64,000 nt of DNA from a virus. Made by a program: the position numbers and the translations under genes. Of this stretch, positions 4,980 through 62,058 are shown in pieces. The notes under the pieces are model-generated. The model saw only the letters and a list, made by a program, of their open reading frames with translations. It did no database searches and had not been told where the DNA came from. Each line of letters opens with the position of its first letter. The first letter of the stretch is position 1. The stretch is from positions 62,001 through 126,000 of IMG/VR virus record IMGVR_UViG_3300037245_000806, one strand, 5' to 3'.

Positions 4980-5251
4980 TTCTTTGTATGCGAATAGTGT
5001 GCAAGTAGTGTGCGAATAGTGTGTCTGCTTACAGACCCTTTACTTCCAAAGGGCGCGTTACTGCGCAGGTATCAGTTTGTAAGGTTGCGAATTCGTAAGG
5101 CCTCAGCCTGCTGTAGTGGTTCTATGAGCACATCGCCCAGATGGGTGTCACGCTGCCCTTAGAAGTAAAGGGGTGCGTGACAAAGGCAATACAAAGAGCA
5201 TACAAAGACCATACAGACCGTAACCAATGGACAGACCATAGCCAATGGTTA
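4980..5251. repeat. Iteron-like intergenic region
   Basis: This gene-free stretch holds several short repeat sets. Three 11-bp units (TGCGAATAGTG, TGCAAGTAGTG, TGCGAATAGTG) run head to tail at 4991-5023. A second set of three 11-bp units (GCAATACAAAG, AGCATACAAAG, ACCATACAGAC) lies at 5186-5218. Two 18-bp units beginning GACC and containing CCAATGG lie at 5216-5251. Two CCCTTTACTT/AAGTAAAGGG arms, one near 5040 and one near 5160, face each other. Repeats with helical-turn period are typical of replication origins or multi-site operators. It sits next to a promoter and between the ART-like gene and a zinc-ribbon gene. Confidence 0.6.
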
Positions 5252-6730
5252 CTCGTCGCTGGGTCCGGGCGAACCCTTTGGACCTTGTGGTCCCGTGGGG
5301 CCTTTCGGACCTTCGGGGAACTTGCCGCCGGTCGGAGGAGGTGCCCCACCACCGCCAGCTGGTGCGGGCTCGGGTTCAGGCTCGGGTTCAGGCTCAGGCG
5401 GCGGGGCCAACGCTGCTTCCTTCTTCCGCAGCCCTGTCGGGTCGGGGACTTGGGGAGCCAAGATGGTTCCGATGGGGCTCACCTTGATGCGCCTCAGCTT
5501 GAACTTCCGCTTCGTCTTGATGAGCGCGGCACCTTGGTCGAGACCGGAAGCGATCTGCATGTCGTAGTAGGCCTGCACATCCTTGAGTTCATACCCGATC
5601 TTCTCGGCCTGCTCCTCTGCCGTCTCAAGGTCGGACATCTCGTCCTCTTCGTCCTCGGGAGGCGGCGGGGGAGCTTTCTTCTTGGCCTTCTTCTTCTTCG
5701 CAACCTTCTTCACGGCGGGCTTCTTCTCAGGCTTTTCCTTCGGCTCATCCTCGGGCGGCTCGTCGTCTTCCTTCTCGACGAACATACCCTGAAGCGTCTC
5801 GACCACCTTGGGCTTCCCCTTCAGCGCGACGACCTCGCTCGGAACATTGCGCCGCACAGTCACGATGCCGTCGTAGCCGTCCTTGATAAGCGCGCGCGTG
5901 AGTGCCTTACCCTTCTTGCCGTACTTCTCCCAGAGCGCGTGCTTCCAGCTGGACTTGTCATACCCCATGCCGAATTCGAGCACGAGAGGGTTCTTGAACG
6001 TGGCGACCCCGTGCGCGAAGTCTTTCCCCGCACGCTTCCACGTCTTAATGCCCTGCTTCTCCGCGATGATCATGTAGTAACCGGCAGGCTCGATGTCCTG
6101 CTGGAAGCGCCCACCCATATTCGGGGCGCTCTCGTTGCTGTGCATGAACGGGAACGACACCTTCTTGCCGGTGCTGAACGATGCACCGTTGGTGTATGCG
6201 TTGGTCAGCCGAAGTCGCTCGTGAGGTTCTCGCGTGTCCAGCTTGGCCGGGGCAGCATCCGGTCGGGTCTCGTCTACGAACGCGGCACTGAGCGTATCCT
6301 CGTCGGTGCTGGGGGAGCTTCCCACGAACCACTTGATGAACTCCGCACGACTGATTTGACCGACAGGCTTATCGACCATGCCCTCTGCACGCTTGACCTT
6401 GGCCGTCATGCTCGCCTTGCCCCACCGACTGAAGGCAGCCATCATGAGCTTCGCGGCAGCCGCACGTGTCGCCGGGTTGTATCCCTTGCCGCCAGCGCCC
6501 GAGTGTGTCAGTTCCCAATAGAAGAGTTTCCATGCCTGCTTCGGGTCGTAGTTCTTCTTGATGTACTTGTGTCGCCAGAGTTGCCGGTACGAGAGTGCGA
6601 GGGCCGACTTGTTTGCGAGGCCCTGCTTGGCGAGTTGCTTCGCGAGTTTGCTGTCGGCGGGTTGCTCACCTGCTCCGGGCTCGCCTTCACTCACGCTTTT
6701 GTGCTCAACAAACAGGTCGGTAAGAGGCAT
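5249..6730 (-). CDS. ADP-ribosyltransferase-like protein with collagen-like tail, 493 aa
   Basis: Domain order: N-terminal leader; helical region (about 30-110); a region of about 190-320 resembling ADP-ribosyltransferase folds carried by phage polyvalent and head-injected proteins (YYMII, then KNPLVLEF, then GYDGIV followed by SEVVAL); a Lys/Pro-rich linker; a helical segment; a run of E-P repeats; and a terminal collagen-like run of G-x-y triplets (GPKGPTGPQGPKGSPGP). T4 Alt is a known head-packaged enzyme of this class. The leader MPLTDLFVE resembles a T4-type capsid-targeting peptide ending in x-x-E. Catalytic residues are not certain. It is followed by the iteron-like region. Confidence 0.5.
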   Translation of the reverse strand: MPLTDLFVEHKSVSEGEPGAGEQPADSKLAKQLAKQGLANKSALALSYRQLWRHKYIKKNYDPKQAWKLFYWELTHSGAGGKGYNPATRAAAAKLMMAAFSRWGKASMTAKVKRAEGMVDKPVGQISRAEFIKWFVGSSPSTDEDTLSAAFVDETRPDAAPAKLDTREPHERLRLTNAYTNGASFSTGKKVSFPFMHSNESAPNMGGRFQQDIEPAGYYMIIAEKQGIKTWKRAGKDFAHGVATFKNPLVLEFGMGYDKSSWKHALWEKYGKKGKALTRALIKDGYDGIVTVRRNVPSEVVALKGKPKVVETLQGMFVEKEDDEPPEDEPKEKPEKKPAVKKVAKKKKAKKKAPPPPPEDEEDEMSDLETAEEQAEKIGYELKDVQAYYDMQIASGLDQGAALIKTKRKFKLRRIKVSPIGTILAPQVPDPTGLRKKEAALAPPPEPEPEPEPEPAPAGGGGAPPPTGGKFPEGPKGPTGPQGPKGSPGPSDE

Positions 6731-18635: not shown

Positions 18636-20735
18636 CTAGATCGTTGGTGCTGCATCCTTGTACGGATGTCCACCGGGGAGCTTGCTTTCCTGCCCCCACT
18701 TCCAAGCGAAGTAGCCTTCCATCCGCTGCCGATCAGCTTCGGTGAGTTCACCATCGACAATGACGATCTCACCGATCATACCATCCGCCGCGTGCGCGTA
18801 CTGGTTGTCCGCGATGGCATTCATACCGAGCGTCCTCGGATAGCGGTATAGTCCCGCGTTGTCGGTCAGTACACCATCGACACTGAACTGCTTCTGCGAC
18901 GTGCGGATGTGCGAGAGGAAGCCGAGGATGTAGTCGGTGGCGATGACCGCAGTCTGAGCCGCCTTCGTGTCGGTCGGACTCCACGGCGAGGCGCTTCCCC
19001 AGTTCCGAATCAAGCCGGTCGTGAGGACCGTGTTCTGCGTGTTGCTGCCTCCGATGCAGGTGAAGTCAGCGACCAGCGCGTCGATGTTGATGACGCACCA
19101 CATCTCCTTGCCGATCATGTCGATGGCTGAACCGAAGTCGAGGTGCTGACTCGACGCGCCCACGTAGTCGAAGACGTTCTCGCCGCCGATGGTGCGCGTC
19201 CCGGTCGTCGGCCTGTTCCCGCCCGACTGCGTGGCGTCGTTTTCCCTGCCGCTCTTGTCGTCAATCTGATCGACCGCGCCAGCCGTGTCGGAGATCGTCG
19301 CGGAGTCGGCGGTATCCCACCACGCTTCGAGGGGTTCCCCGGCGTCCTTCGGCGTCCACGCCCGCGTCGCACGAGTCGGAGCGTGGCCCTTGTACGGGTG
19401 CCCGATGGGGAGTAGTGCTTGGATGCCCCACTTCCACGCGAGGTATCCCTCGATCTTCTGAATGTTGGCAAGCGTCAGGTCCGTGATGACAATGAACTCA
19501 GCCATCGCGCCGTCAGGAATAGCCGTGCCCGCGCGGTCAGCGAACATCCTGAGAGTCTGCGAGGCCGAGAGCTTGGTCGAGTACGTCTGCGGCGTCCCGT
19601 TCACTTCCCCATCGACCCGCGCACTGATCTCTGTGTCGCCGGTGAAATCGAAGATGGACGCGAACATGTGCGCGCCCGTGTAAGGGCCACCCGTTAGCGC
19701 GACGTTGGTGCCTCCCGTGGCGTCAATCTCACCGTCGAACTGACTCGCGTTCGCAGCGTCTAGCTGGTAGTCCTCCGCAGCGTCCGCGCTCCACAGTGAA
19801 TCGTTCGCGTCGTCCACCGAGTCGATCAACACGACGCCGATGACCGCGTGGTCTCCCGAGGCGTCGATGGGGAAGGCGGTCTTCGCCATGAAGTCGCCGC
19901 CGTCGCAGTCGAGGACGTTCAAACCGTTCTGTGTGCGTGCGCCCGAGGTCGGCTGCGCTGCCACAGTCGCTTGAACCAGATCGCGCTGCTGGTTCGCCTT
20001 GTCCTGCCACAAGCTCACGTCTGCGGCTTCAACCGTCAGGAGTGGCGATATTCCGTAGATCGGAAGATCGTAGGTGTCAGTATTGACGCCACGATCAATC
20101 CAGAACTGTTGCTCGGCCCGTGCAAGACCCAAGTTGGTGTTGCCACCGTTGCCAAGAGGATTTTCGGCAGTGCCGTCCCAACGAGTACCCGTCCAGACAG
20201 CACACCACGATGTCCAAATAGGAGTGTCATTCGGACGCAGGTTTCCGTCTTCGTCCAAGTCTATATTGACTCTGGCCCAACTACTGCTAGGCCACATATC
20301 TGAGAGCTTGAGGAAAGCCACCTGTGCGCCGTCCATCAGGATAACCGCACTGTCCGTGTCGGAGCCGGGATCGGTGTTAGTATTATCTTTCGCGTCTACA
20401 GTGGCCGTGGACACAACAGCCGTCCATCCCGTACCGAGTCCAGCCGCAGTCGCTAGGTTCTGAATGAACGTGTTGTAGTCCGCTATCGTTGCAGACGACC
20501 CATCCCGCACGCCACTCGACACGAACATCAGTCGGTACTTGTCCCCGACCTGCCACGGCTTCCCTGTGTTGGGATTGATCGGGAGCGCGTCAACGTCGAG
20601 GACGCCAAGCTCGCCAGCCGCACCGAGGATCGTCGCCTCGTCGGCGGCGTCATACCACGCGTCGAGGTCGATCTCAGACGGGAGCCACGGCGTAGACGGG
20701 ATACCAAATGTCCTGAATGGGTTGATGATCTCCAT
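18636..20735 (-). CDS. Fibre/adhesin with two laminin-G-like domains, 699 aa
   Basis: Two copies of a phage LamG/concanavalin-like module are visible, each starting W(Y/W)D(A/T)AD and ending in a helix reading IEGYLAWKWG...LPIGHPYK or MEGYFAWKWG...LPGGHPYK. Between the first strand and the rest of module one there is an inserted domain (about residues 40-235, containing YRLMFVSSGVRDG) similar in style to secreted bacterial proteins. Probably binds host surface carbohydrate. ATG at 20733-20735 overlaps the upstream stop (TAATG). Confidence 0.75.
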   Translation of the reverse strand: MEIINPFRTFGIPSTPWLPSEIDLDAWYDAADEATILGAAGELGVLDVDALPINPNTGKPWQVGDKYRLMFVSSGVRDGSSATIADYNTFIQNLATAAGLGTGWTAVVSTATVDAKDNTNTDPGSDTDSAVILMDGAQVAFLKLSDMWPSSSWARVNIDLDEDGNLRPNDTPIWTSWCAVWTGTRWDGTAENPLGNGGNTNLGLARAEQQFWIDRGVNTDTYDLPIYGISPLLTVEAADVSLWQDKANQQRDLVQATVAAQPTSGARTQNGLNVLDCDGGDFMAKTAFPIDASGDHAVIGVVLIDSVDDANDSLWSADAAEDYQLDAANASQFDGEIDATGGTNVALTGGPYTGAHMFASIFDFTGDTEISARVDGEVNGTPQTYSTKLSASQTLRMFADRAGTAIPDGAMAEFIVITDLTLANIQKIEGYLAWKWGIQALLPIGHPYKGHAPTRATRAWTPKDAGEPLEAWWDTADSATISDTAGAVDQIDDKSGRENDATQSGGNRPTTGTRTIGGENVFDYVGASSQHLDFGSAIDMIGKEMWCVINIDALVADFTCIGGSNTQNTVLTTGLIRNWGSASPWSPTDTKAAQTAVIATDYILGFLSHIRTSQKQFSVDGVLTDNAGLYRYPRTLGMNAIADNQYAHAADGMIGEIVIVDGELTEADRQRMEGYFAWKWGQESKLPGGHPYKDAAPTI

Positions 20736-21535
20736 TATGGCTGCGCTCCGATCAGCGCAATCTTCAATCCCAAGCCCGCGACGGAGGCACCTACGGCGTC
20801 GATGTCCACTGTGATCTCCACGTCGCCCCCGAGATTCGGGTCGTCGATGACAGGAGGCGTCACTGCGGTCACGGAGGTCTTCTCCCCGGCGTCAATCGTG
20901 ATCTCCGTAGTGAGAATGGAGACGCCACCCACATTGATGTCCACCGTGATAGCAGAGCCGGTGGGCGCGGTCTTCACGTTCGCACGCACCCCCGAGAGTA
21001 CGAACGCGTAAGGCATTCGGAACGTGAGCTTGTCCGTTCCCGTAGTCAGCGGAGTAAACTCGTTGCTCACCGCAGCGACGATGGCCTCGACGGGGTTGCC
21101 AGCGTGACCAATCAACTCGATCTTCAAGCCCGCCCCGGCGATGGTCGAGCCTATAGCGTCGATGTCCACGGTGATCTCTGCATCGTCCACGAGGTTCACG
21201 TCGTCGAGCACAGGAGGATTCACTGAGTCGAGCGAGGTCTTGGTCCCCGCGTCAATGCTGATCTTCGTCGAGAGGATGCTTACGGGACCGCCGCCTGTGT
21301 CCTGATTGATGTCCACCACGAGGGCCGACCCCGTGGGAGCCGTCTTCGAGTTCGCGCGGACGCCGGTCAGTGTGAATCCATAGGGGACGCGGAACGTGAG
21401 CTTGGCGCTCCCTGTAGTCAGGATCGAATCTTCGTCGCCCACCGCAGCCATGATCGACTGCCTGACGTTGCCGCCGGGCACACCGGGATCGCCCTTCGGC
21501 CCTTGGAGTAGCTCAATCGCTGATTCATCAGCCAT
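20735..21535 (-). CDS. Tandem-repeat fibre protein, 266 aa
   Basis: After a short collagen-like start (GPKGDPGVPGG) there are two near-copies of a 105-residue beta-sandwich: each has LTFR(V/M)PY(G/A)F, GVRAN(S/V)KTAPTGSA, SIL(S/T)T(K/E)I(S/T)IDAG, PPV(L/I)DD and EITVDIDA(I/V)G. Similar modules occur in phage fibres and head-decoration proteins. Coupled to the LamG fibre gene. Confidence 0.7.
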   Translation of the reverse strand: MADESAIELLQGPKGDPGVPGGNVRQSIMAAVGDEDSILTTGSAKLTFRVPYGFTLTGVRANSKTAPTGSALVVDINQDTGGGPVSILSTKISIDAGTKTSLDSVNPPVLDDVNLVDDAEITVDIDAIGSTIAGAGLKIELIGHAGNPVEAIVAAVSNEFTPLTTGTDKLTFRMPYAFVLSGVRANVKTAPTGSAITVDINVGGVSILTTEITIDAGEKTSVTAVTPPVIDDPNLGGDVEITVDIDAVGASVAGLGLKIALIGAQP

Positions 21536-28286: not shown

Positions 28287-28299
28287 TGACACAGTGTTA
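28287..28299. promoter_or_regulatory. 13-bp palindrome TGACACAGTGTTA
   Basis: Exact copy lying between the polyprotein-like gene's stop and the fibre gene start, upstream of the GGGGA ribosome site. The 21 bp beginning with a GTAGT site and ending in this palindrome (28279-28299) are identical to 36771-36791. Confidence 0.6.
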
Positions 28300-31227
28300 C
28301 GCTCTGGCCGGTCCGATCTTCGACATGCCATCGTACCAGATGAGTCCCTTCTTGCCGAGCGCTTTTGCGGCACTCATGAGTTTCTTGAAGTGAATACCGG
28401 TGAACTCAGGGCGCTTGGCGATTGCGGATAGCTTGTAGTCGCCCCCCTCGGCAGTCTTCTCCATGAACGCGAGCAACGCCGCCTGCGCCTTGCCCTTCGC
28501 GGCTGCCTCCTGAATGCCCTCCGCGACCTTCTCGGCACTCACAGAGTCCGTGCCATACATGGAGTCGTCAGCGGGCGTGAGGTACCGCTGAACCTGTCGC
28601 TTCGTGAAGCGGTCCGTGTTGCCGGTCAGCGTGGTGAGCGCCACGATGTCTGGCAGGATGTACTGGACGAACACGCGGCCTGCACCGATCCGCACGCCAG
28701 TGCCGCCCTTCATCTCCTTGTTCAGGATCGCATTGCCCTTGTAGTTGTCGTTGTCATCGATCACGAGCCCGAGCTTCGTGACAAGCTTGTCATTGGACCC
28801 GGCGACACCCTCGGCAATGCCCTTCTTCCAGAGGTCGCAGATATCATCCTGCTCGATCTTCCCGCGCACCAGCTGGCAGGCATCGGGGAGGACCACAGAC
28901 GAGCAAGTTCCGCAGCGCTTGTCGCCGTCCTTGTCAGTCTGCGAATGGCGGTAGTTCACTTCCTCCTTGGGCTTCCGGTCCACCGCTTTGTTGCGGGTGG
29001 GGGCGGCTGCCTCATCGACGGGCTCCAAGACTTTCTCACCCACGTCCTTCGAGGTCATTGAAACGCGCCAACCCTTGCCATTCTTCTTTCGCCACTTACG
29101 CATCAACCTCGCAGAGCCGCGCTTGACCACAATACCCGCAGGGTCCACAAGCACATAGCCCACCATGGCTTCCTGTAGTTTGATGATATTGGCAATGCCT
29201 TTCCCCGCCGGAAGCGAGCGCTGTGACGCCGGGGTGACACCAAGCTCCTTCTTCAGCGCAGCCCGGAACGATGGACTCTTCATGGCGTCAGCAAAGGACA
29301 CGCTGGCGAAGCCACCACTGAGCCTGACCTTCCCGCCGTACTTCTTGGCGAGCGCGCGAAGTGACTTCGTGAACGCACTGTCGGTCGCCTCATCGAGCTT
29401 GACGCGTGTGGTATTGAAGCCCGCGCCCTTGACTGCTCGAATGATGCGACTCACTGAGGCCACTGCTTCTGCTGCCGTCGCAGGCTTACGCCGTAGTGTT
29501 GCCATGAGTTTCTTCGCCCCCGTACCAATTGCCTTGAGCACCTTCACGAGCGTTGCGTCCGGTCGCTTGTCATCCACCGCGCGAATCGCATACGCCTTGA
29601 TCTTATGCTTCCCCTTCGGACCGAAGTCAACAAGATACTCAGGATCAACGGTAGTGTCCTTCGCGACCAGTGACACAATGTTGCCCCGGAGGCTCGCAAC
29701 CTTGACCTTCTGGCCGGGCTTGAAGAAGCTCTCCTCGTCGATGGATTCGCGCAGTGCTCTATGGGGCTCATCCGCGAGGCGATACTTCTGACCCTTGAGC
29801 GTGAACCAATGCTTCTTGCCGTGCGACACCATCACGCCCTTGAGTTGCTCATCCGACACAGCTTCAGCAACCCCCAGCTGAACGTAAACGCGGTAGACGT
29901 GCGAGCGGAAGCTGCTGTCCTCCTCGATGTCGTCCAACGCGAGGTAAATGCGCTTGGCTGCCTGCGTGTTCAGGGCGATACGGTAGTTGGCTCCCGCCTT
30001 CTTCGCCTCGCCTATCGCTTTGACGCCAGCCCGATCCAAGGCATCCTGCGGGTCGTCCACTTCGACGATCTTGTAACGCAACTCCTCGAACAGCTTCTTC
30101 GATACGACAATGTGCCGGGGCAGCTTGTACACTTCATCGATGGACTCGCGCGCGGACTTGAGTTCCTTGTACTCACTCCACCAACCGTCCAACGTCATGG
30201 CGTCCACTTGCGAGGTCATGACGCTCGCCGTGTACCATCCCGACGCACCCCCGCCAATGAAGTAGTAGTAACCCTTACCCTTTACCAGCTTCTCCTTGAC
30301 GCCCTTCGCCTTGAGCATCTTGTTGACCGTGCCGAGGGTCACCTTGCCCTCATCGATGGATTCATTCTTCCTCTTGAGCCGCACCTCGTCAGCCTTCACG
30401 GTGATCTCATTCGGGGTCTGCGTCTTCGTGCCGGGTGCGACACGTGCGTAGTCCTTTGGATCGATCAGGACCACGAGTGTCGCTGGACCCTTCGGATAGA
30501 AGACATTGACATCGCGCTTGATGATCTTGCCGGGGACCGGAGGCTTGACTGCGATGGGCTTGTACCCGCGCTTCCATCCGAACCTGCGGACGACCACGAT
30601 CTCATCGCCCACCTTGTACGTTGGGCCTTTGTAAATGCTCGGTATGAAGATGCGCTTCTCATCGATGGCAGCCGCCTCGAACACTTTCTTCGGACCGCAG
30701 TAGTCACATACACCACATTGCGCGGTGCCACGCCACTGAGTATCCGGGTCGTCCTTGGGGCCGAACCTGATGTGCTCCGTCGAACCGCACTCGGGGCAGA
30801 GCACCTCACTGATATCTTCAGTGGCAAGCAAGGTACCGCTAAGCGGAACCGTGAAGAATCCCTGCTTGCCAGAGCCGCTCGTCCCCGAAGGCCCGTGGCC
30901 GCTGTAGTGCATATGCACCTGAGCACCAGAGCGAGCGTACTTCGGGAAATACTTGGCGATGATCTTCTGCGTCTTCTCAGGGCTGTGATACAGGCGCGCG
31001 ACCGTGAAGTCCTTCGCGTCCTGTGACTTCCCCTTGGTGGCGTCATCGAACTTCAGGTACCGGGCCTTCATGAACGTGTCGGAGTATGCGATGCGCCGTA
31101 GTTTGCTGGCCATCTCAGTGGTGACGAGCACCTCGTACACGCGCAGCTGCTTGCCGACCACCTCGATGGCAAGGTCGCCCCGATAGACTTGGCCCGCACG
31201 CTTCTCAGCTTCTAGGATGGCTGGCAT
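28297..31227 (-). CDS. Polyprotein-like multidomain protein, about 976 aa
   Basis: The ATG at 31225-31227 (MPAILEAEKR) after GAAGGGG is preferred over a longer frame. Small domains are strung together and separated by ESIDE-type motifs: AAAIDEK (near 30665), ESIDEG (30358), ESIDEV (30141), ESIDEE (29747), EPVDEA (29016). Between them lie zinc ribbons (CPEC...CGVC), basic KOW-like beta modules, a module starting GYVLVD that also occurs in the 2081-residue protein, a CGTC...CQLV...CDLW cysteine domain known from phage head regions, and a winged-helix-like end. The motif fits T4-type prohead protease sites; cleavage is not shown. Confidence 0.65.
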   Translation of the reverse strand: MPAILEAEKRAGQVYRGDLAIEVVGKQLRVYEVLVTTEMASKLRRIAYSDTFMKARYLKFDDATKGKSQDAKDFTVARLYHSPEKTQKIIAKYFPKYARSGAQVHMHYSGHGPSGTSGSGKQGFFTVPLSGTLLATEDISEVLCPECGSTEHIRFGPKDDPDTQWRGTAQCGVCDYCGPKKVFEAAAIDEKRIFIPSIYKGPTYKVGDEIVVVRRFGWKRGYKPIAVKPPVPGKIIKRDVNVFYPKGPATLVVLIDPKDYARVAPGTKTQTPNEITVKADEVRLKRKNESIDEGKVTLGTVNKMLKAKGVKEKLVKGKGYYYFIGGGASGWYTASVMTSQVDAMTLDGWWSEYKELKSARESIDEVYKLPRHIVVSKKLFEELRYKIVEVDDPQDALDRAGVKAIGEAKKAGANYRIALNTQAAKRIYLALDDIEEDSSFRSHVYRVYVQLGVAEAVSDEQLKGVMVSHGKKHWFTLKGQKYRLADEPHRALRESIDEESFFKPGQKVKVASLRGNIVSLVAKDTTVDPEYLVDFGPKGKHKIKAYAIRAVDDKRPDATLVKVLKAIGTGAKKLMATLRRKPATAAEAVASVSRIIRAVKGAGFNTTRVKLDEATDSAFTKSLRALAKKYGGKVRLSGGFASVSFADAMKSPSFRAALKKELGVTPASQRSLPAGKGIANIIKLQEAMVGYVLVDPAGIVVKRGSARLMRKWRKKNGKGWRVSMTSKDVGEKVLEPVDEAAAPTRNKAVDRKPKEEVNYRHSQTDKDGDKRCGTCSSVVLPDACQLVRGKIEQDDICDLWKKGIAEGVAGSNDKLVTKLGLVIDDNDNYKGNAILNKEMKGGTGVRIGAGRVFVQYILPDIVALTTLTGNTDRFTKRQVQRYLTPADDSMYGTDSVSAEKVAEGIQEAAAKGKAQAALLAFMEKTAEGGDYKLSAIAKRPEFTGIHFKKLMSAAKALGKKGLIWYDGMSKIGPARA

Positions 31228-31237
31228 GACTGCCCCT

Positions 31238-31378
31238 TCAGATGAGGTCTTCGATGGAATCGAGCACGCGCTCTGTATCCGGCGACAGCATGATCTCCAT
31301 GACGACCAATGGTAGTGCAATGACGAGCACAACGAAAGCGCGAAGACTGAAGTTCAGCCGTGGCAGATCAGGATACAT
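31238..31378 (-). CDS. Small membrane protein, 46 aa
   Basis: ATG at 31376-31378 after AAAGGGGGCG, coupled to the DUF6527-like gene stop. One membrane helix (FVVLVIALPLVVMEIML) with a short basic N-terminus and acidic tail. Function unknown. Confidence 0.58.
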   Translation of the reverse strand: MYPDLPRLNFSLRAFVVLVIALPLVVMEIMLSPDTERVLDSIEDLI

Positions 31379-32584: not shown

Positions 32585-35500
32585 TTACTCGTCAAGTGCC
32601 GGGTCGGCTGCCTCGATCTCCTCTTCCGTCGCAGGTCTGACCTCTCCCGTTGGTGACACAACGTCACTGCCGCACTCGACGCACTTCGCGACGGTAGTCA
32701 GATTGAGGAATGCAATCGATGCACTTGAGCAATGCTCGCACCGAACCTCAGCCATGATGGGGCCGACGTCCGCGCACTCCTCTTTGCCTAGCCCGAGCAT
32801 GTTCTTGAACACTGCGGTGACAAGCTTGTAGTAACGCGAGCCATCACCACCCTCATCCTTGGACTTCTTGATATCCGGGTACTGCTTGTTGACCGCAGCC
32901 TGCGCCTTGCCCCACAGCTTGATCGCTTCATTCGCTGTCTTGCCCGCCTTGCGTGCGAGCGCCTTCATGTGCGTGGGCTCTTTCACCTTGCCCGCGCCGG
33001 GATAGGTCGTGGAAAGCTGGGCTTCGGTCACGCCCTCGACGGCTTCACCCAACGCCTTGAGCACCTTCGTGAGATGCCACAGGCCGATCTTGATATTGGA
33101 CGCGGAGACGAACGTGTCACGTAGTGTTTTCCCGTCACCCTTGGCCGCAGCATCGAACTTATTCACGAGCGCGACAGGGAGCGACCTCGTGAACGTGAAC
33201 ACGAGACGACCCTTACTGTCCACGACCCACTTGTCCCACGCGACGTTGTTCTTCTTGAGCCACCCGATCATCTTGTTGATGACCTTCTTGGCAGCCGGGT
33301 GCTTGTCCAAGTCGTCCTGCGTGTAGCCCTTGTCAGCTTCGTCCACATCTTCCTTGACCGTGAAGCCCTTGCCCTTCTTGAGGCCGTGCTTGGCGAGCGC
33401 TGGCAGCAGGTACTTCATGTGCTTCTGCTGGACGATCACGTAGTGGGTTCCGTCCGTGTCCTTCCGCATCCCGCTCGCTGTCTGCGAACTGATGACCGCA
33501 GCGATGTCGTCGGCCTTCTGCTTCGAGAGCTTGCCGAACTCCAAGGTCACCGCAGCCTCATCGAGGTCTTCCGTCTTGATATCCTTCGCACGATCCGCCA
33601 GCCCCTTGGCACCCTTGAGCGTAGGGTGAGAGCCGATGTCCTTGATGACCTTCTTGCCCTTCAGGATGACAACCCCGAACTGGTCCTGATGCGGCACCGG
33701 CTTGGGGTATCGCAGGAACACAACGCCGCCGCCTGTCTTCGCCCGGTACACGATCTTCTTGCCGGGGGCGTAGTCCTCTTCGAGGTCTTCGGACTCGGCA
33801 ACCTTCTTGATCACCGTGGCAGCCTTACGTGCGTTGTCGAACTTCTGGCCCTTCGCTTCGAGTTCGCCCTGCTTGCCACCCACCCACGCCTTGCCCGTCC
33901 ACACCTCGCGCGGATTGGCAATCGACCCCGACTTCCGGCGCACGAGAATAACTTCAGCGTACCCGGTCGCGGAAAGCTTGAGCGTCATGTACTCGTAGTC
34001 GCCCTTGGTGAACGAGACTTCGTCGAGGCCCGCCGCCTCAAGCTCGTCGCCCCCATCGAAGTCCTCGTCGGTCTTCTTCTTGCTGATCTTATCAATGGTG
34101 ACGATCTTGCCGCCGGGGAACTCAGTGAGCATTATCCGCGCGAGCTTCATGCTCTTCATGTAGAGGGGTTTGCCCGAACCCTTTTGAACGACGGCGTGCG
34201 TGTACCCGCGTGCCTGCAAGATGGCGGCGAGGCGCTTCTCTTGCACGTCCACAACTTCGTCGAGGTCCACGTCTTCCTTGACCACCTTGACGTCTGCCTT
34301 CAGGAACTTGCGCCCGTCTGCCACGACGACAATGTACTTGCCCTCGTCACGTAGTTTCGTCGGGTCCGCAACGCCCTCGCCCTTCTTCCAGACGCCGCCC
34401 TTCGATCCGTCCTTGTTGACCGGGACGGTGCCCCTCGGGTTAGAGATCGAGAAGGTGCCCTTGAAGGTCTTCGCCTCATCGAGGTCTTCCTTGAGCGCCG
34501 GGTCATTCAGGTTCACGACAATCGTGTTGCCACGGAACTGAATCGACTTCTTGTTGGTCTCCGGGTACTCGATGCTGAACGTGCGCATGAAACTGTCCCG
34601 GCGGTCCTCGCTTGGTAGTGTGATGACTGCGGTCTTACCGGAGACCTTCAGCTTGCCCTTGTCGTCCTTCGCCATGATCTTCAGGGAGGCGAGCGCAGCC
34701 TCATCGACAGACTCGTGGGCTTTCTTCTTGCGCCACTTCCAGCCCTTGTTCGCCACCTCGTTGGACTTGTTGAGCTTGGCAGCCTCCTTGGGAGTCATGG
34801 ACTTGAAGACCTTCTTGACGCCGGTCTTCCTGACCGGGTTGTTCTGCGAGTCAACGAGTACGTAGTCTGCTTCGTCGATGCCTTCCCTCGGACCCGTCTT
34901 CTTGGCCTTCGCAATCGGGACAAGGACTTCCTCGTCGCCCTTCTTGGGGCGGGGGTTCGTCACCCTGACCTTGAGCGTGTTGTTGACATCGCTTATCACC
35001 GCACCCTGCATCAGCTTTCCATTGGGCGCAGTCCACGTGATGCGCTGGCCCTTCTTGAACACCTCGTCAAGGCCCTCGGTGGGATTCTTGTTGTAGTCGG
35101 CCCCGAAGACATACCCGTACTTCTTGAGCGCCTTGAGCATCTCCTTGTCCTTGAGGGCTTTCTTGTCACCGCGTCCAGCGGGCGTCATGGACAATACCGA
35201 CAGGCCCATCAACCGCGCGGTCACGACGGCAACCTGCTCGTCGCCCTTAAACACGGGGCGCACGATCACCGAAAACCGATTCGGATACTTCCCTGCCTTA
35301 TCCGTGTGGAAGCCGCCGAGCCCGTAGACGTCCCCGAGCGTCATCACGATGTGTCGGCCAACCTTGCGCGTAAGCTTCCCGTCACTGCCGGGGGTTGGCC
35401 CCTTCTCATCGAGGTCGTCATCGGACTCGTTCTTCTTCTTGTCGGCCACCCCGCGAGCGTAGCCTTTCTTGTATGCCTTGATCCGGGCGCGTGACCAATT

Positions 35501-38500
35501 CTTCTTGTCGAACTCCTTCTTCTCCTGCTCGCCCTTCGTCGCCGCGATGTGCCCGTGCATGAATGAAGCATGAGCCGCATCACCACGGGTGCCACTGCGA
35601 CCGTACTCCTCGATGGCCGCTGCTTCCGCGAGGTCTTCGTAGTCATCCCCATCAATGGACTCTGCAACATAGGTCGCATTGAGGGCCTGAGCCACAACGT
35701 CTTTACCGGACCCCTTCTTGGTGAGCTTCACGTGACGATACATCTGAAGGAGCAGTAGTCCCGCTGAGACCTCAGGCTCCGAGAGCCCCGTGGCCTTCAC
35801 GATGGCCTTGCCAGTGATAGGCTTCTTCGCCTTCTTCACCGCAGCGAGCATCGCCTTCTCACGCTTGTCCAGCGGCGCGCGCTCATCGAGGTCGTCCTCG
35901 GAGACAGTCTTCTTCTTGCACTTCACGCAGTACCCTGTCGCGGCGAGCACCTTGCTGCCGCAGCCCGGACACTTGACGGTCCCCGTAGTGGCCTTCTCAT
36001 CGAGCATGGCTTCGGAGTGCAGGAGCAAGTCCTCCGCATCCTCATCCGCGATGTGCCCCATGTCCTCGCCGTCAATCACGAGCGAGTAGGTATCGTCGTC
36101 CTCCGTAACGATCTCGATCTCGCACTCCTTGACCTTGCGGTCAAGCTGGATCATGTGACCAAGCTTGGCCTCGTCATCGCGGAGCGGCCTGACCCACGTG
36201 CCCTTGCCCTTCACCTTCCACCCGGCGGCGGTCATACCGAGCGCGCGTGAAACAGCGCGGAGAATCGTCTTGATCTGGTTGTCGCCCTCAGCTGCCGGGG
36301 CACCCAACGTGACCTGCGCAGTCTTGCCAACAACCTTGCGCGTTGCGATGGGGTTGTCGGCACCGCGACGAACTGCAACAAGGGCGTCACCCTTGATGCC
36401 GATGGTCCTCGTAGTACGCCCCTTGCCATCGCCGCCGCGCACGAAGTCCGAGATAACTATCTTGGCCTTCATCGGGATGCTATAGCCCTTCACCTCATCG
36501 ACTGACTCGATGATCGAGAGCCCCTCTGCCTTGGCTGCCTTGCGGATTGCGTTGACCCATGTCTGACTCACGTTGCCCTGCGGATCACCGAGCACAATCC
36601 GGTTGCCCTTGCGCGTAGCGAGCGGGTCTTTGCGACCGCGCGAAGGTCCGGTGAGGATGTCGCCCTCGATGTCAAGGTTCTTCGCCTTGACGCCCGAGCC
36701 ATCCTTGCCCTGCACGAAGGCCTTGATCATCTTGCGGTCGCCCGCCTTCAGCTTGTAGCCCATGGACTCCCGTAGTCGTGACACAGTGTTATCATCTTCG
36801 CCGAGGGCGAGGAGACGCATGCGACAGGCGCTTTCGACCGCTACGTCCCGAGTCGCTATAAACTCGTGGCTTCTCCCACTTTTGATGCCTTCAAACAGGC
36901 TCGTAACACAACGTTCGCCCTCCACAACAGTACCATGCTCCTCAACGTACTCCTGAAAGAAGGCTTCAACCATGACGTCAAACTCGTTGGGAAGGTCCGC
37001 ATAGAATTCAACCATCTTCTCAAGAAGGCTATGGACTTCCTGTAGTGTGATCGGAACCCTGTACGCCTGACCGCCAACCTGTACCAACGTCTTCCCATCA
37101 TCCGTACCATCCCTGCGTGCGGTCCATGAAAGGAACTTGGACTGAAAGCCCTCCTCCCCCTCCATGTACAGCGGGCCTTGCTGTAGTTCAGGCTCGAAGC
37201 CCACGCACAGTACCTCACCGGGGTGGATCATCTTGTTCTCGCCTGAGCCCACCACGGGAGCGCCTATAAGATTGTGCGAACCCTCGGGGTCATCCTTACC
37301 CTTGTCTGACTCACTGACATCCTTGCTGAGGCTCTTGAGCATACGCAGGTCTGTTGCCACCGAAGCGTTCTTCTTCTTCTTGCCTGACTTGATATCCTTC
37401 CGCAGCTGCCTGAGGGCTTTCTTCATCCCGTCCGCTGTGGCCCGCACTCCATAGCCCTTGGCGTACTGCTTCAGTTCCCTGCTGTGACCGTAGGCTTCGT
37501 CGATACCTTCGTTGGGGGCCTTCGCGCTGAACTTCTTGACTTCCTTCTTGAGCACGTGTGTCTGGACTCCCGGTTCGAGTTCCACCTTGTACCCGGTCGC
37601 GGTCTTCTTGATAACCGTGACGGTCTTGCCCTTGGCGTACTTCTTGCCCTTGAGCTTCAGGTCCGTAGTGAGCATGTACGCCTCGTCGATAGACTCGAAG
37701 GGCTTCGTGAGTTTCGTCATGCGCGCATACGGGAGCTTGTCCCAATGCGCGTGGGCAGCCTTGACCACTTCAGCCTTCTCCTTCGGATCGCCGTAGTCAC
37801 CGAAGGACATCGCAGCTTTCTTCCACCCTCTCGGGCTCAGCTTCTTCAGGCGCTTCTGAATCTTCTTGACCGTCTTCACCTCGTTGTCGGCGAAGCTCAG
37901 GATCATGAAGGCGACAAGGTCTTTGATGGTACCCTTGTCTGCTTCGTCGAGGTCTTCCACTTTGGGGAACCACAGCCCGCCGTTGCCATACCACCGCACG
38001 CCATTGGCATCCTCAACACAGAGGATACTGTTCTCGGCATCCTCATTGAGCGTGGAGTCGTGCAGGTCGGGGTACAGGAACTGGAACGCATTGTCAGTGA
38101 CCCCACCCTCTTCGCAGATGGCTACGTAGTCTGCCTTGGTCTCGGGGCGCAGGCCCTCGGTCTTCATCGCGGGGTCTTCCTCTTTGGACTTCGCGGTTGC
38201 CTTGGCGAAGCCCGCACGCTTCGGGAAGCATTCGATGATCGTGAAGTCGCTGACCTGACCGGACTCGAAGTCGGTATCGCCAGCGGTGACGAGAGTGTCC
38301 AGCTTGCAGAAACCCCTCACACCTTCGTTGAGCTTCTGAAGAGGCTCGGCAGCAATCTTGCCTTGGAAGATCGCGAGGAACGTAGTGTCCGTTCCTTCGA
38401 GTTGTGTCTCAAGGAACTGCGTGATGAGGTCGCCGCACTTCTCCATGAGGTACGCCTCGAAGAGGATCGCGGCCATGCCCGTGTCGGTGTTGCTGAAGGC

Positions 38501-38830
38501 CGGGCTCTTGTCGGTGAAGTTCTTGGCGAACTCGCGGGCGCTCTGCTTCTCGTCCTGAAACCCGGAGGCGACTTCGAGGATGAGGTCAATGTACTCGTCG
38601 CGGTGTGAGATGCTGCCGGTGATGGTAGCGGGGAGGTCGAGGCTCGACCGGAGCTTGGCAACCTTCTTATAGAATCCGCTGGCCTTCTTCTGGCGAACCG
38701 ATGCCTTCTGCTTGGCACTCAGGCGCTTGGGCTTCCTGAACTTCATGAGCCTGCGGCGCTTCTTGGCCTTGATGCCCTGTAGTCTGCGCTGGGAGGAAGA
38801 CTGCCGACGAACGGTTGCCTCAAATACCAT
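32585..38830 (-). CDS. Giant polyprotein-like protein, 2081 aa
   Basis: ATG at 38828-38830 after GAGAGGGGTAAACG. An N-terminal basic segment and a domain of about 290 residues are followed by about 18 small domains, each bounded by E-[SGD]-[ILV]-D-E-type motifs, for example near residues 292, 378, 440, 773, 940, 977, 1135, 1251, 1315, 1371, 1447, 1518, 1598, 1753 and 1826; the last residues are PALDE. Domains include zinc ribbons, a winged-helix-like module, KOW-like basic modules, two tandem copies of one domain (about 690-770 and 775-860) and a YKKGYARG helix. The motif equals the T4 gp21-type (I/L)xE rule, so I infer a head-internal polyprotein processed during capsid maturation. Confidence 0.65.
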   Translation of the reverse strand: MVFEATVRRQSSSQRRLQGIKAKKRRRLMKFRKPKRLSAKQKASVRQKKASGFYKKVAKLRSSLDLPATITGSISHRDEYIDLILEVASGFQDEKQSAREFAKNFTDKSPAFSNTDTGMAAILFEAYLMEKCGDLITQFLETQLEGTDTTFLAIFQGKIAAEPLQKLNEGVRGFCKLDTLVTAGDTDFESGQVSDFTIIECFPKRAGFAKATAKSKEEDPAMKTEGLRPETKADYVAICEEGGVTDNAFQFLYPDLHDSTLNEDAENSILCVEDANGVRWYGNGGLWFPKVEDLDEADKGTIKDLVAFMILSFADNEVKTVKKIQKRLKKLSPRGWKKAAMSFGDYGDPKEKAEVVKAAHAHWDKLPYARMTKLTKPFESIDEAYMLTTDLKLKGKKYAKGKTVTVIKKTATGYKVELEPGVQTHVLKKEVKKFSAKAPNEGIDEAYGHSRELKQYAKGYGVRATADGMKKALRQLRKDIKSGKKKKNASVATDLRMLKSLSKDVSESDKGKDDPEGSHNLIGAPVVGSGENKMIHPGEVLCVGFEPELQQGPLYMEGEEGFQSKFLSWTARRDGTDDGKTLVQVGGQAYRVPITLQEVHSLLEKMVEFYADLPNEFDVMVEAFFQEYVEEHGTVVEGERCVTSLFEGIKSGRSHEFIATRDVAVESACRMRLLALGEDDNTVSRLRESMGYKLKAGDRKMIKAFVQGKDGSGVKAKNLDIEGDILTGPSRGRKDPLATRKGNRIVLGDPQGNVSQTWVNAIRKAAKAEGLSIIESVDEVKGYSIPMKAKIVISDFVRGGDGKGRTTRTIGIKGDALVAVRRGADNPIATRKVVGKTAQVTLGAPAAEGDNQIKTILRAVSRALGMTAAGWKVKGKGTWVRPLRDDEAKLGHMIQLDRKVKECEIEIVTEDDDTYSLVIDGEDMGHIADEDAEDLLLHSEAMLDEKATTGTVKCPGCGSKVLAATGYCVKCKKKTVSEDDLDERAPLDKREKAMLAAVKKAKKPITGKAIVKATGLSEPEVSAGLLLLQMYRHVKLTKKGSGKDVVAQALNATYVAESIDGDDYEDLAEAAAIEEYGRSGTRGDAAHASFMHGHIAATKGEQEKKEFDKKNWSRARIKAYKKGYARGVADKKKNESDDDLDEKGPTPGSDGKLTRKVGRHIVMTLGDVYGLGGFHTDKAGKYPNRFSVIVRPVFKGDEQVAVVTARLMGLSVLSMTPAGRGDKKALKDKEMLKALKKYGYVFGADYNKNPTEGLDEVFKKGQRITWTAPNGKLMQGAVISDVNNTLKVRVTNPRPKKGDEEVLVPIAKAKKTGPREGIDEADYVLVDSQNNPVRKTGVKKVFKSMTPKEAAKLNKSNEVANKGWKWRKKKAHESVDEAALASLKIMAKDDKGKLKVSGKTAVITLPSEDRRDSFMRTFSIEYPETNKKSIQFRGNTIVVNLNDPALKEDLDEAKTFKGTFSISNPRGTVPVNKDGSKGGVWKKGEGVADPTKLRDEGKYIVVVADGRKFLKADVKVVKEDVDLDEVVDVQEKRLAAILQARGYTHAVVQKGSGKPLYMKSMKLARIMLTEFPGGKIVTIDKISKKKTDEDFDGGDELEAAGLDEVSFTKGDYEYMTLKLSATGYAEVILVRRKSGSIANPREVWTGKAWVGGKQGELEAKGQKFDNARKAATVIKKVAESEDLEEDYAPGKKIVYRAKTGGGVVFLRYPKPVPHQDQFGVVILKGKKVIKDIGSHPTLKGAKGLADRAKDIKTEDLDEAAVTLEFGKLSKQKADDIAAVISSQTASGMRKDTDGTHYVIVQQKHMKYLLPALAKHGLKKGKGFTVKEDVDEADKGYTQDDLDKHPAAKKVINKMIGWLKKNNVAWDKWVVDSKGRLVFTFTRSLPVALVNKFDAAAKGDGKTLRDTFVSASNIKIGLWHLTKVLKALGEAVEGVTEAQLSTTYPGAGKVKEPTHMKALARKAGKTANEAIKLWGKAQAAVNKQYPDIKKSKDEGGDGSRYYKLVTAVFKNMLGLGKEECADVGPIMAEVRCEHCSSASIAFLNLTTVAKCVECGSDVVSPTGEVRPATEEEIEAADPALDE
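36779..36791. promoter_or_regulatory. 13-bp palindrome TGACACAGTGTTA inside the polyprotein gene
   Basis: Exact copy inside the coding region (encoding DDNTVS), about residue 680. With the adjoining GTAGT it repeats the 21 bp found at 28279-28299, which is not explained by protein similarity there. Confidence 0.55.
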
Positions 38831-38888
38831 CGTTTACCCCTCTCGAAGCCTGTAGTGTCTTCACGAGGGATCAAGGATAGGTGAGCCT

Positions 38889-48366: not shown

Positions 48367-48839
48367 GCTGACAGTATCCCCGTGGGTCGAGACTTAATGC
48401 CGAACTTCCGCGCCTGCGCGTCAATGTGCTGCCGGAATGAGTGCATCGCACTCGACGTCCGACTCGTATGGCTCTTGGCCTTGGAGCTACCATGGTTGGT
48501 GCGCCGGTACGTGTCGATCTCTTTATTGCGGTGCCTGCGATAAGGGCACGCGGCCCTGAGTTGATTCCTGAACGCGCGCGACCCGTTGAAGGACGGAAGG
48601 CAGTGCTTCTCCAAGCCCTTCTTACGTGGCGTGTAGCCATACGGGGCGAAGATTCCGAAGCCGGGGATGCGCACGATCTCGCCCCGCGTAACCTCGTCGG
48701 CGGTGTATTCGAGGAAATAGGCGACAAGGTTCGCAGCGAAATGGTCGCTCACGCCCATCTTCTGCGCACACTTCGTGATGGTGCGCTGTAGTGGCTCGCC
48801 CTGCTTCGTCGTCGGCATGAACGGTATGCGTACAATCAC
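48363..48839 (-). CDS. HU/IHF-like DNA-binding protein, 158 aa
   Basis: GTG start in a 4-bp overlap with the portal stop; an inner ATG (MPTTKQ) is possible. Residues about 12-95 resemble HU/IHF: a helical start, then EIVRIPGFGIFAPYGYTPRK and PSFNGSRAFRNQLR for the beta-arm and end. A basic, polar C-terminal extension follows. Possibly packaged with or bound to DNA during head filling. Confidence 0.6.
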   Translation of the reverse strand: MIVRIPFMPTTKQGEPLQRTITKCAQKMGVSDHFAANLVAYFLEYTADEVTRGEIVRIPGFGIFAPYGYTPRKKGLEKHCLPSFNGSRAFRNQLRAACPYRRHRNKEIDTYRRTNHGSSKAKSHTSRTSSAMHSFRQHIDAQARKFGIKSRPTGILSA

Positions 48840-50785
48840 TTGGCTTCGTCCTTCCCCGTGTCTTCGTCCTTCTCAGCGTCTTCGTCCTCGTTGATCGGAG
48901 GCGCAACCTTGAGCGCCGCCATGTCCTCCTTGAGCAACTTCGCTTCCTTGTCGTCCTCGTAATCGTCTTCCAACAACTTCCCGGCGACAACAGGAGGCAG
49001 AATGCTCGGGTCGGTCTGCTGGAACGCACGACGCACCAACATGCTAACCTGCGCGTCCTTAGCGTCTGCCTCGTCAGCTGCCTCGTTGACTTCGTCTTCG
49101 TAGTAGTACGCTAGGTCGCCAACAACCTTCCGAAGCTCAGGGCTGCGGTGCATCATCTTGGCGATCTCAAGCTGCTCATTCGGGCTGACCGAAGTGAACC
49201 CGGTTGGCGTCATGTCCTCCATGATTGCGTTACGCGCGTCTGGGTTCATGGCCAACAGCGTACCCCTGACGCGGGGTGACAGGTTCTCCATACCTCCGAA
49301 GCCTTCACCACCACCACCAGCAGCAGCAGCGGCAGGCTCGACCGGCGTCTTGGAAATAAGCTTCAGCACAAGGTCTTCAGGAAGCTTCGCGTAGTTCAGG
49401 AGAATGTAAATCGCCCACACCTTCGGGTCCAACTGCATGTCGGCGGCGAGTCTGCTCATCGACTCCACGATCTGGTACCGCAGCTGGACGAGTTCAAGCC
49501 GCTCCCACTCGTCCAAGTACGATATCGGCGACATCTGTACAAGGAATTCCTTGTCAGGCTGATGGAAGTCATAGGTGTCATCGTTGGGCTCAGTCGGGAG
49601 CAACGTGTAGTGTATTTCTAGCGTCTGCCTGATCCCATATATCGTTGACCGCTGAAGACGCTTCGCACTGCGCGCGAACCGCACGTCCTGCTGGACAAGC
49701 GTTGCCTTCGCGTTGATCTCGCCCTCGAAGCCGAAGTACGCCTTGGGCACCTTGGCGGTACCGAAGAACTTGTCGCGGAAGTGTTCGAGGTCGTACAACT
49801 CGCCCATATTACCCGCGCCGGAAAGCGTCTCGATACGCGTGTTGTTATTCGGGCGCATCGCCACGAAGACATCTTCCAGCGGCGTCAGAGGATTATACTG
49901 CTTCTTGTAGTTGGGGCTCGACGGATCAATGAACTCAAGCTTCCTGAACCGCTTCCGCCAACTGTTGAGGTACGAAACAGCGTCGTGCTCCTCCATATTC
50001 CCGACGTCAACCATCACAAGATTGCGGTCCGGTGCGCGCCGCATCCGGTACATGAGCACACTGTCCTCGGCGAGGGTGAGTTGCCGCCACGGTCGGAATA
50101 GAGCGTCCAGTATCGCGGTGCCGTATCCGGCCTCCTCGTACTTGCCTAGCAACCGGAAGTGTACGTAGTCCCACGGCCACGAAACCTTCCGCTTCTTCTG
50201 CCGATACTTCTGGCCGTCTTCCCTGAAGCCGATCAAGCGGCCATACTTATCTTCAAGTCGATGCACCTTGCTAGACGATGCCACCTTCCAGCCGAGCACA
50301 CCCTTGCCTGTCTGATAGATCAACCGCTGGAATGCGTCACCGAGCTTGCCTGTCCGACGCGTTATGAACTGGACCCGGTCTTCCATCTGCGTGTTACGCA
50401 GGCACTCGTTACCGGCAGTGATCATGGCCTTCGACTTGGATTCGATCCACACGGAAACACCACGGTCGTAATCACGCTGGGTGGCTTCTTCCGCGTACAC
50501 GTCGAGGATAGCTGAGACGAGACCGAACGTATCCATCTCTGAAAAGATGCGATACCGCTCCTTGCGATCACGCGCGATGCTGAGGTAGTTGGTATACCAT
50601 TCCTGCGACTGCTCCGCGAGGGCGGCAGCTTCGTCACCATCGCCGGTAACAGTCACCGGGTGCGAGTGGCGTCCAAACAATCCAGTGAGTCGCCAAAACC
50701 ACCCAACTTGGTGGGGGTCGGCCAAGCGCTGCTCACCGGAGTAACTCGGCACAGGCTTCTTTACTTGATCCTGAAGACCGGGCAC
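48836..50785 (-). CDS. Portal protein, T4 gp20-like, 649 aa
   Basis: GTG start after GAAGGACAAGCCA. Strong T4-type portal blocks: LAEDSVLMYRMRRAPDRNL, FVAMRPNNNTRIETLSGAGN, LEHFRDKFFGTAKVPKAYFG and LVQQDVRFARSAKRLQRS. It forms the dodecameric DNA entry ring of the head. The C-terminal 150 residues are acidic and Ala-rich. The T4-like type predicts a gp21-type prohead protease elsewhere in this genome. Confidence 0.92.
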   Translation of the reverse strand: MPGLQDQVKKPVPSYSGEQRLADPHQVGWFWRLTGLFGRHSHPVTVTGDGDEAAALAEQSQEWYTNYLSIARDRKERYRIFSEMDTFGLVSAILDVYAEEATQRDYDRGVSVWIESKSKAMITAGNECLRNTQMEDRVQFITRRTGKLGDAFQRLIYQTGKGVLGWKVASSSKVHRLEDKYGRLIGFREDGQKYRQKKRKVSWPWDYVHFRLLGKYEEAGYGTAILDALFRPWRQLTLAEDSVLMYRMRRAPDRNLVMVDVGNMEEHDAVSYLNSWRKRFRKLEFIDPSSPNYKKQYNPLTPLEDVFVAMRPNNNTRIETLSGAGNMGELYDLEHFRDKFFGTAKVPKAYFGFEGEINAKATLVQQDVRFARSAKRLQRSTIYGIRQTLEIHYTLLPTEPNDDTYDFHQPDKEFLVQMSPISYLDEWERLELVQLRYQIVESMSRLAADMQLDPKVWAIYILLNYAKLPEDLVLKLISKTPVEPAAAAAGGGGEGFGGMENLSPRVRGTLLAMNPDARNAIMEDMTPTGFTSVSPNEQLEIAKMMHRSPELRKVVGDLAYYYEDEVNEAADEADAKDAQVSMLVRRAFQQTDPSILPPVVAGKLLEDDYEDDKEAKLLKEDMAALKVAPPINEDEDAEKDEDTGKDEAK

Positions 50786-61673: not shown

Positions 61674-62058
61674 CTGGTAACTCCTCCACAACGTGTACAG
61701 GGATATTAAGCGGTCCAGTGAACTGCGGCGCTTTCAGGTACGCATGCCCGGTCTCGTAGTTATAGTGGAAGCCGCCGCCAAGCTGACGCACTGTCGCGCC
61801 AAACACTTGCAGCAAATCCCATACGTCCAAAGTGCTGAGTTCGCCCTCCTTCGGGAGTCGCGTCGATGCGCCCCGAAGCGCTTTCTCCGCGAAGGCGCTC
61901 GCCCAACACGCCCGGCAGCAATCACCAGACTCGACGTCCTCAGGCTTGCACGGGCCTCTTGGTGCGAGGAGATTACTGCACTCCCACTTCACCATCTCCG
62001 TGAGGTCTGCGCGCCTGACGGCGAGGAGCCTACGTGGGTTCTTTTGTTCGTTCTTCAT
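61663..62058 (-). CDS. Cysteine-motif protein, paralogue 1, 131 aa
   Basis: ATG at 62056-62058 (MKNEQK). Shares with the next gene the block WxC-x(6-9)-GPC-(K/T)PxxV-x-(S/A)GDCC-x-AC-x(4)-AFAE; the four or five cysteines likely bind metal. Tandem duplicates of an unknown domain. Confidence 0.6.
   Translation of the reverse strand: MKNEQKNPRRLLAVRRADLTEMVKWECSNLLAPRGPCKPEDVESGDCCRACWASAFAEKALRGASTRLPKEGELSTLDVWDLLQVFGATVRQLGGGFHYNYETGHAYLKAPQFTGPLNIPVHVVEELPDGV

Follow-up and report, generated by a model that had tools for sequence, protein, structure and literature searches.

The protein of 2,081 residues considered here, polyprotein A, is encoded in a stretch of 64,000 nucleotides of viral DNA (the window; positions 62,001 to 126,000 of IMG/VR record IMGVR_UViG_3300037245_000806), which is part of the 143,033-base record of an uncultivated virus (G000), and it is likely to be a precursor that enters the prohead, where the prohead protease would cleave it in trans to release ~17 small proteins, most of them basic. 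The model proposes that polyprotein A would be synthesised as one chain and taken into the prohead core together with the scaffold, and that the gp21-type serine protease that also processes the capsid protein would, once activated, cut it in trans after the last Glu of E-x-[LIV]-D-E↓[AV] (the arrow marks the predicted cut). The resulting ~17 small, mostly basic folded proteins would remain with the DNA and would most likely be ejected into the host at infection, as are IPI and Alt of phage T4. Cleavage at the linkers is predicted with high confidence, since the site is repeated, a suitable protease is present, the consensus equals that of the predicted capsid site, and both unit shuffling and domain limits fall at the sites. 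Packaging in the prohead is held with moderate confidence, on the basis of the compartment in which the protease acts, the mimicry of the capsid site and a stand-alone unit found in a head gene cluster. Injection, and anti-defence or takeover roles of the units as effectors, are suggested by the precedent of IPI and Alt in T4 (PMC3012670, PMC9026906).

Polyprotein A is a single open reading frame (ORF) without internal stop codon, its coding score is by far the highest within the window, and a good ribosome-binding site precedes it (Table 1). The product is basic overall (357 K+R vs 300 D+E) and [ILV]DE occurs 16 times in it, against 2.2 expected by shuffling (5,000 rounds, maximum 8) and 2.9 predicted from the remaining genes of the window. 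The strict motif E[SGD][ILV]DE[AV] is present 10 times, and the looser class E-x-[ILV]-[DE]-E-[AV] also 10 times, compared with 0.1 by shuffling. The sequence-only reading that preceded this analysis had described a single frame with repeated motifs, a C-terminus in PALDE and about 18 cleavage motifs and products; the intact frame, the repeat and the terminus are all confirmed, and the count is lowered to 16 internal sites (15 [ILV]DE and one LEE), hence ~17 products of roughly 4-35 kDa, most of them with net positive charge. Alignment of the linkers, which that reading had recommended, reveals preferences beyond the selecting motif, with E at P5 in 11/16 sites, D, G or S at P4 in 15/16, L or I (13/16) or V (3/16) at P3, D at P2 in 15/16, E at P1 in all 16 and A or V at P1' in 12/16. 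P5, P4 and P1' played no part in the [ILV]DE definition by which the sites were chosen, and the binomial probabilities of their preferences are 7e-10, 1e-9 and 7e-7, respectively. The DNA that encodes the linkers differs from site to site (GAAGGCATCGACGAAGC, GAGTCTGTCGATGAGGC and others), so that conservation acts at the protein and not at the DNA level. When the 143-kb record is searched with a DNA pattern encoding E-x-[ILVM]-D-E-[AV], 12 matches are obtained, 10 in polyprotein A and two in the adjoining ORF 28297-31332, with no match elsewhere in the record and none for the reversed-pattern control; this ORF therefore appears to encode a second, smaller polyprotein (B).

The record beyond the window was read in stretches, and one of them (L007) contains the gp21-like protease that was to be sought elsewhere in the genome. 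The product of L007:1759-3378(-) matches Pfam Peptidase_S77 (2.9e-17) and the PHROG head maturation protease (1.6e-32), and can be aligned to the crystal structure of T4 gp21 (5JBL, 3e-8), the conserved LLIE region of autocleavage being part of the alignment. The catalytic triad positions H145, S200 and D223 are invariant in the proteases of six relatives. In this clade the protease is fused, in one gene, to a scaffold-like coiled region, and the fusion protein itself holds ESIDE↓S, EGLDE↓S and further sites. A gp23-type capsid protein is encoded at L007:219-1730(-) (6.1e-42), and the portal is of T4 type, as had been supposed (Portal_T4, 1.2e-44); these three matches all exceed the gathering cut-off. 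T4 gp21 cleaves after L/I-x-E (PMC9026906). In the capsid proteins of the relatives, the segment directly before the conserved GGFSDYLFPIIRA reads [IL][DN]E↓[AVT] in 20/20 cases, counted after leaving out the misplaced first row of one alignment (the C-terminal part of a major capsid protein, MCP), and E81 is invariant. By analogy with gp23, this segment, for which this phage has VIDE↓V, is predicted to be the capsid maturation cut, and it shares one common consensus with the polyprotein linkers from P3 to P1'. The N-termini begin with MVFE↓A in polyprotein A, MPAILE↓A in polyprotein B, and MLTETEQVDE↓A and MGNSGISLFE↓A in relatives.

Scanning IMG/VR with the capsid protein, the portal and the N-terminal unit yielded ~30 related contigs, which reveal that the units are reshuffled at the motif. 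Polyproteins with units homologous to those of polyprotein A are found in G004, G005, G010, G013, G019 and G020. Motif clusters in G029 (821, 2503 and 575 aa), G020 (1029 and ~2600 aa), G019 (1075 aa) and G022 (636 and 682 aa) point to further polyproteins that have no detectable similarity to it; one unit of the 821-aa protein of G029 is found mid-way in the 2619-aa protein of G020. The zinc ribbon and the KOW-like barrel, ~270 residues apart in polyprotein A, are adjacent in G004, with KTESVDE↓A between them, and the barrel homologue there lies between ESVDE↓A and EDLDE↓D, its neighbourhood being unlike that of polyprotein A. Likewise, unit A688-779 (numbers after A are residues of polyprotein A) ends in ESVDE here and in ESIDE in G019, with different neighbours. 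The C-ends of homologous stretches lie at most 3 residues from a site in 17/89 cases vs 3.9 expected (0/2,000 random placements reach 17), and their N-ends at most 10 residues from a site in 26/95 vs 11.4 expected (p 0.0005), these stretches being not fully independent. Units of polyprotein A also exist as separate genes, in other phages only: the zinc ribbon as a gene of 64 aa (L003:3151-3345) with 64% identity, and A1949-2022 as a gene adjoining the protease in G025; here they form one ORF of 2081 codons. The G005 polyprotein (G005_1112, 349-376, L035) carries a 28-residue copy of the capsid-site region, IDEMTRSGTVGGF... (IDE.TRS..VGGF; 54% identity, E 1e-4), and similar E-x-T-[RT]-S-x-x-V-G/S-G-[FY] pieces are found in G013_557 at ~282 (L031), G020_2619 at ~2060 (L075) and G029_2503 at ~1923 (L074); they may be an element for recognition or shell binding.

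Pfam and PHROGs detect no family above cut-off in the complete polyprotein A, an S27e zinc ribbon at residues 2028-2062 falling just under it, and tblastn with the whole protein and with its N-terminal unit against 50,697 phage records gives no match. Two AlphaFold2 (AF2) runs, made with very shallow alignments, reach mean predicted local distance difference test (pLDDT) values of 46.7 and 54.9. Their confident domains are the zinc ribbon (A951-976), a beta barrel (A1257-1313), an alpha/beta domain (A1758-A1828) and the stretches A48-184, A449-508, A551-639 and A739-777. Foldseek matches the barrel to Tudor/KOW domains, with template modelling (TM) scores on the target of 0.7-0.8, and finds nothing useful with the model of the N-half. 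The zinc-ribbon and KOW-like units named by the sequence-only reading are thus recovered by AF2, and its winged-helix unit is plausible, its fold not being confirmed. The barrel and the alpha/beta domain each start at a site and stop a few residues short of the next one. As for motifs buried within domains, which would speak against cleavage, none lies inside a confident domain and several lie at domain limits: 0/16 sites fall in 10-residue blocks with mean pLDDT >=70, while 23% of residues reach this value (~p 0.02), which taken alone is modest evidence. The predicted units are listed in Table 1.

Table 1. Predicted units of polyprotein A, its cleavage sites and other features (window coordinates; all units and ends as predicted).
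Feature	Residues	Coordinates	Strand	End or linkers	Remarks
Shine-Dalgarno-like GAGAGGGG		38837..38844	-		upstream of the polyprotein A ATG; read from sequence
Polyprotein A	1-2081	32585..38830	-	PALDE
Internal sites (16)	P1 at 296, 383, 445, 779, 945, 983, 1142, 1256, 1320, 1377, 1452, 1525, 1604, 1685, 1758, 1831
Unit 1, conserved N-terminal	1-296	37943..38830	-	MVFE↓A start, EDLDE↓A	related units in five other polyprotein ORFs (relatives); AF2-confident core A48-184
Unit 2	297-383	37682..37942	-	ESIDE↓A	net charge +7
Unit 3	384-445	37496..37681	-	EGIDE↓A	net charge +7; following confident domain starts A449
Units 4-6	446-779	36494..37495	-	ESVDE↓V	551-639 in G010, G019, G020; 688-779 in G019 (ESIDE↓G end)
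Unit	780-945	35996..36493	-	AMLDE↓K	by eye like 688-779 (possible tandem copy)
Zinc-ribbon unit, CPGC-CVKC	946-983	35882..35995	-	EDDLDE↓R	AF2 pLDDT ~85; stand-alone homologue
Unit with winged-helix-like part	984-1142	35405..35881	-	DDDLDE↓K	low pLDDT
Unit	1143-1256	35063..35404	-	EGLDE↓V	net +8
KOW/Tudor-like beta-barrel unit	1257-1320	34871..35062	-	EGIDE↓A	AF2 pLDDT ~90; Foldseek; G004 homologue
Unit	1321-1377	34700..34870	-	ESVDE↓A	net +7
Unit	1378-1452	34475..34699	-	EDLDE↓A
Unit	1453-1525	34256..34474	-	VDLDE↓V
Unit	1526-1604	34019..34255	-	AGLDE↓V
Unit	1605-1685	33776..34018	-	EDLEE↓D
Unit	1686-1758	33557..33775	-	EDLDE↓A	net +6
Alpha/beta (b-a-b-a-b) unit	1759-1831	33338..33556	-	EDVDE↓A	AF2 pLDDT ~92, A1758 to A1828
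C-terminal units	1832-2081	32588..33337	-	PALDE	include 1949-2022 unit and second zinc ribbon (S27e-like, sub-threshold)
Polyprotein B, 976 aa from ATG		28297..31227	-	MPAILE↓A start; ESIDE↓G, ESIDE↓V, ESIDE↓E, KLDE↓A, EPVDE↓A
T4-type portal (gp20)		48836..50785	-		Portal_T4

Several observations weigh against the trans-cleaved precursor or narrow its reach. None of the 20 capsid sites has the V that occupies P3 in three linkers, and many [IL]-x-E sequences occur in polyprotein A outside the linkers, where folding would have to protect them. Its gene lies ~53 kb from the protease and capsid cluster, and a T4-type capsid-targeting leader is not recognised in it, just the short VFE↓A start, no comparison with the T4 leader having been made. 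Most of the AF2 models are of low confidence. Moreover, giant homologues in G019 (1609 and 3604 aa) and G010 (1322 aa) have few or no strict sites, so either the density of processing varies or these proteins remain whole, and dense cleavage is not family-wide. The negative controls, on the other hand, favour the precursor. Contigs picked only for one ESIDEA-type coding sequence hold 1-6 sites each, mostly scattered, with no dense clusters comparable to those of polyprotein A and its relatives, which indicates that such clusters are not a general feature; one of these contigs, G033, has three sites within 0.5 kb. In the nearest isolates by MCP that were checked (Listeria LIS04 and Maribacter Colly), motif clusters do not exceed the reversed-pattern control. 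No relatives of the MCP were found in 84,980 bacterial and archaeal genomes.

The virion RNA polymerase of phage N4 is packed and injected whole, and polyprotein A could likewise be a giant multidomain 'polyvalent' protein that is never cut, its acidic motif being just a flexible joint or a place where scaffold or protease docks. This is unlikely, although phages do have polyvalent proteins with 2-15 domains, some of them packaged whole (PMC5512222), and certain relatives have giant chains without dense sites. A neutral linker needs neither an invariant E at P1 nor A or V at P1', whereas from P3 to P1' the linkers match exactly the consensus of the site predicted for capsid maturation, the protease is present with a conserved triad, and the 2589-aa giant of the same phage shows no site enrichment. 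That the linkers are mere recombination seams, left by duplication and exchange of units with no proteolysis at all, has very little probability: shuffling does occur at the motif, but linker DNA varies under a conserved protein sequence, and the site is identical with that predicted for the capsid.

It has also to be considered that polyprotein A is a scaffold or core protein like T4 gp22, gp67 and gp68, cleaved at many sites to peptides which then exit the head and serve no further function. The core proteins of T4 are indeed cut repeatedly by gp21 (PMC9026906), and the protease-scaffold fusion of this phage holds such sites too, but we regard this as improbable, as the units are folded conserved domains (zinc ribbon, KOW/Tudor barrel, alpha/beta) that are also found as separate genes, and the coiled coils of a scaffold are already provided by the protease fusion. 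The AAA+ ATPase domain (7e-14) within a relative's polyprotein (G010, L036:6621-10589(+)) argues against a pure scaffold as well. The precursor packed into the prohead and cut at its linkers is thus the reading we favour.

The design of polyprotein A resembles a combination of two known kinds, the internal proteins of T4 and the polyvalent proteins. As with T4 IPI/IPII/IPIII and Alt, the phage has its own gp21-type protease, the sites are of L/I-x-E↓A type, the products are expected to be small, basic and internal to the head, the unit content varies strongly between relatives and, in G025, one unit is encoded as a separate gene next to the protease. In T4, however, each protein has its own gene and a targeting leader, which is not recognised here, and undergoes a single N-terminal cut (Alt also a C-terminal one), whereas here ~17 units share one ORF, every joint being marked by a site. 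The polyvalent proteins found in phages and conjugative elements, for which an analogy to RNA-virus polyproteins has been drawn (Iyer et al. 2017, PMC5512222), are also giant chains of many small domains that are rapidly reshuffled and thought to be delivered with the DNA (PMC5512222). Their processing has been proposed to be carried out by a peptidase domain of the same chain (PMC5512222), in contrast to the trans cleavage of linkers by the prohead protease that is proposed here; this embedded peptidase (MPTase) domain is common but not universal in them, and none was found in polyprotein A, nor any peptidase domain in the relatives' polyproteins scanned with Pfam. Above cut-off, Pfam matches no polyvalent-type domain here, and of the published set (ADP-ribosyltransferase, ParB-like DNase, YodL, ArdC etc.) the relatives offer just a sub-threshold PARP match in G019 (0.018) and, by eye only, YodL-like stretches in G020 and G029. 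The giant phages phiKZ and SPN3US also have a prohead protease of gp21 ancestry that processes many head proteins after Glu, some at several sites, but there propeptides are removed from single proteins at (A/S)-x-E (PMC10052503), and distinct functional units are not strung together in one chain. Phage P1 packages the large anti-restriction proteins DarB, DdrB and DarA in its head, some of them processed; these are different proteins, DarB being packaged through an N-terminal signal (PMC9024508), and repeated protease-site linkers are not reported there. The sequence-only reading had called such a polyprotein undescribed, which stands within the open-access literature searched, where no paper was found to describe a head polyprotein of a phage in which every joint carries a protease site, nor one that names a 'phage polyprotein'; it has to be amended in that polyvalent proteins (PMC5512222), which that reading did not name, are a close conceptual precedent.

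Other genes of this phage and its relatives are also of note. L007:5554-13323(-) encodes the 2589-aa giant, which has a NUDIX domain (1.8e-10) and is a candidate uncut polyvalent-type protein; it was considered as a further polyprotein and rejected, its cleavage sites not being enriched. In the head gene region, L007:16144-17517(-) (457 aa) combines a zeta-toxin-type kinase with a C-terminal domain that Pfam matches to Tad6 (2e-25), an inhibitor of type I Thoeris, and a similar kinase is present in G019 (L076). The 3604-aa protein of G019 (L068:89-10903(-)) has ADP-ribosyltransferase-like stretches, to which the sub-threshold PARP match belongs. Collagen-like GPKG..GDPG stretches at window 5249-6730 (-) and 20735-21535 (-) probably belong to fibre proteins.

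RNA viruses and retroviruses characteristically make polyproteins that are cleaved at repeated sites, and for tailed phages no description was found of multi-unit polyproteins processed in trans by the capsid-maturation protease. We lean slightly towards the broader view that throughout a clade of uncultivated T4-related phages each virion delivers dozens of injected proteins as a reshuffled cassette, in the form of head polyproteins, for which the prohead protease would be the trans-acting polyprotein protease, and that new cargo would be gained simply when a domain is inserted between a pair of IDE↓A sites. If true, a simple rule, cutting at [ILV]DE↓[AV], would split giant phage ORFs without annotation into small, testable proteins, many of them probably counter-defence factors. 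It would also account for the modular swapping of head-internal cargo, and would suggest a way in which many proteins can be loaded into a phage head in a fixed ratio.

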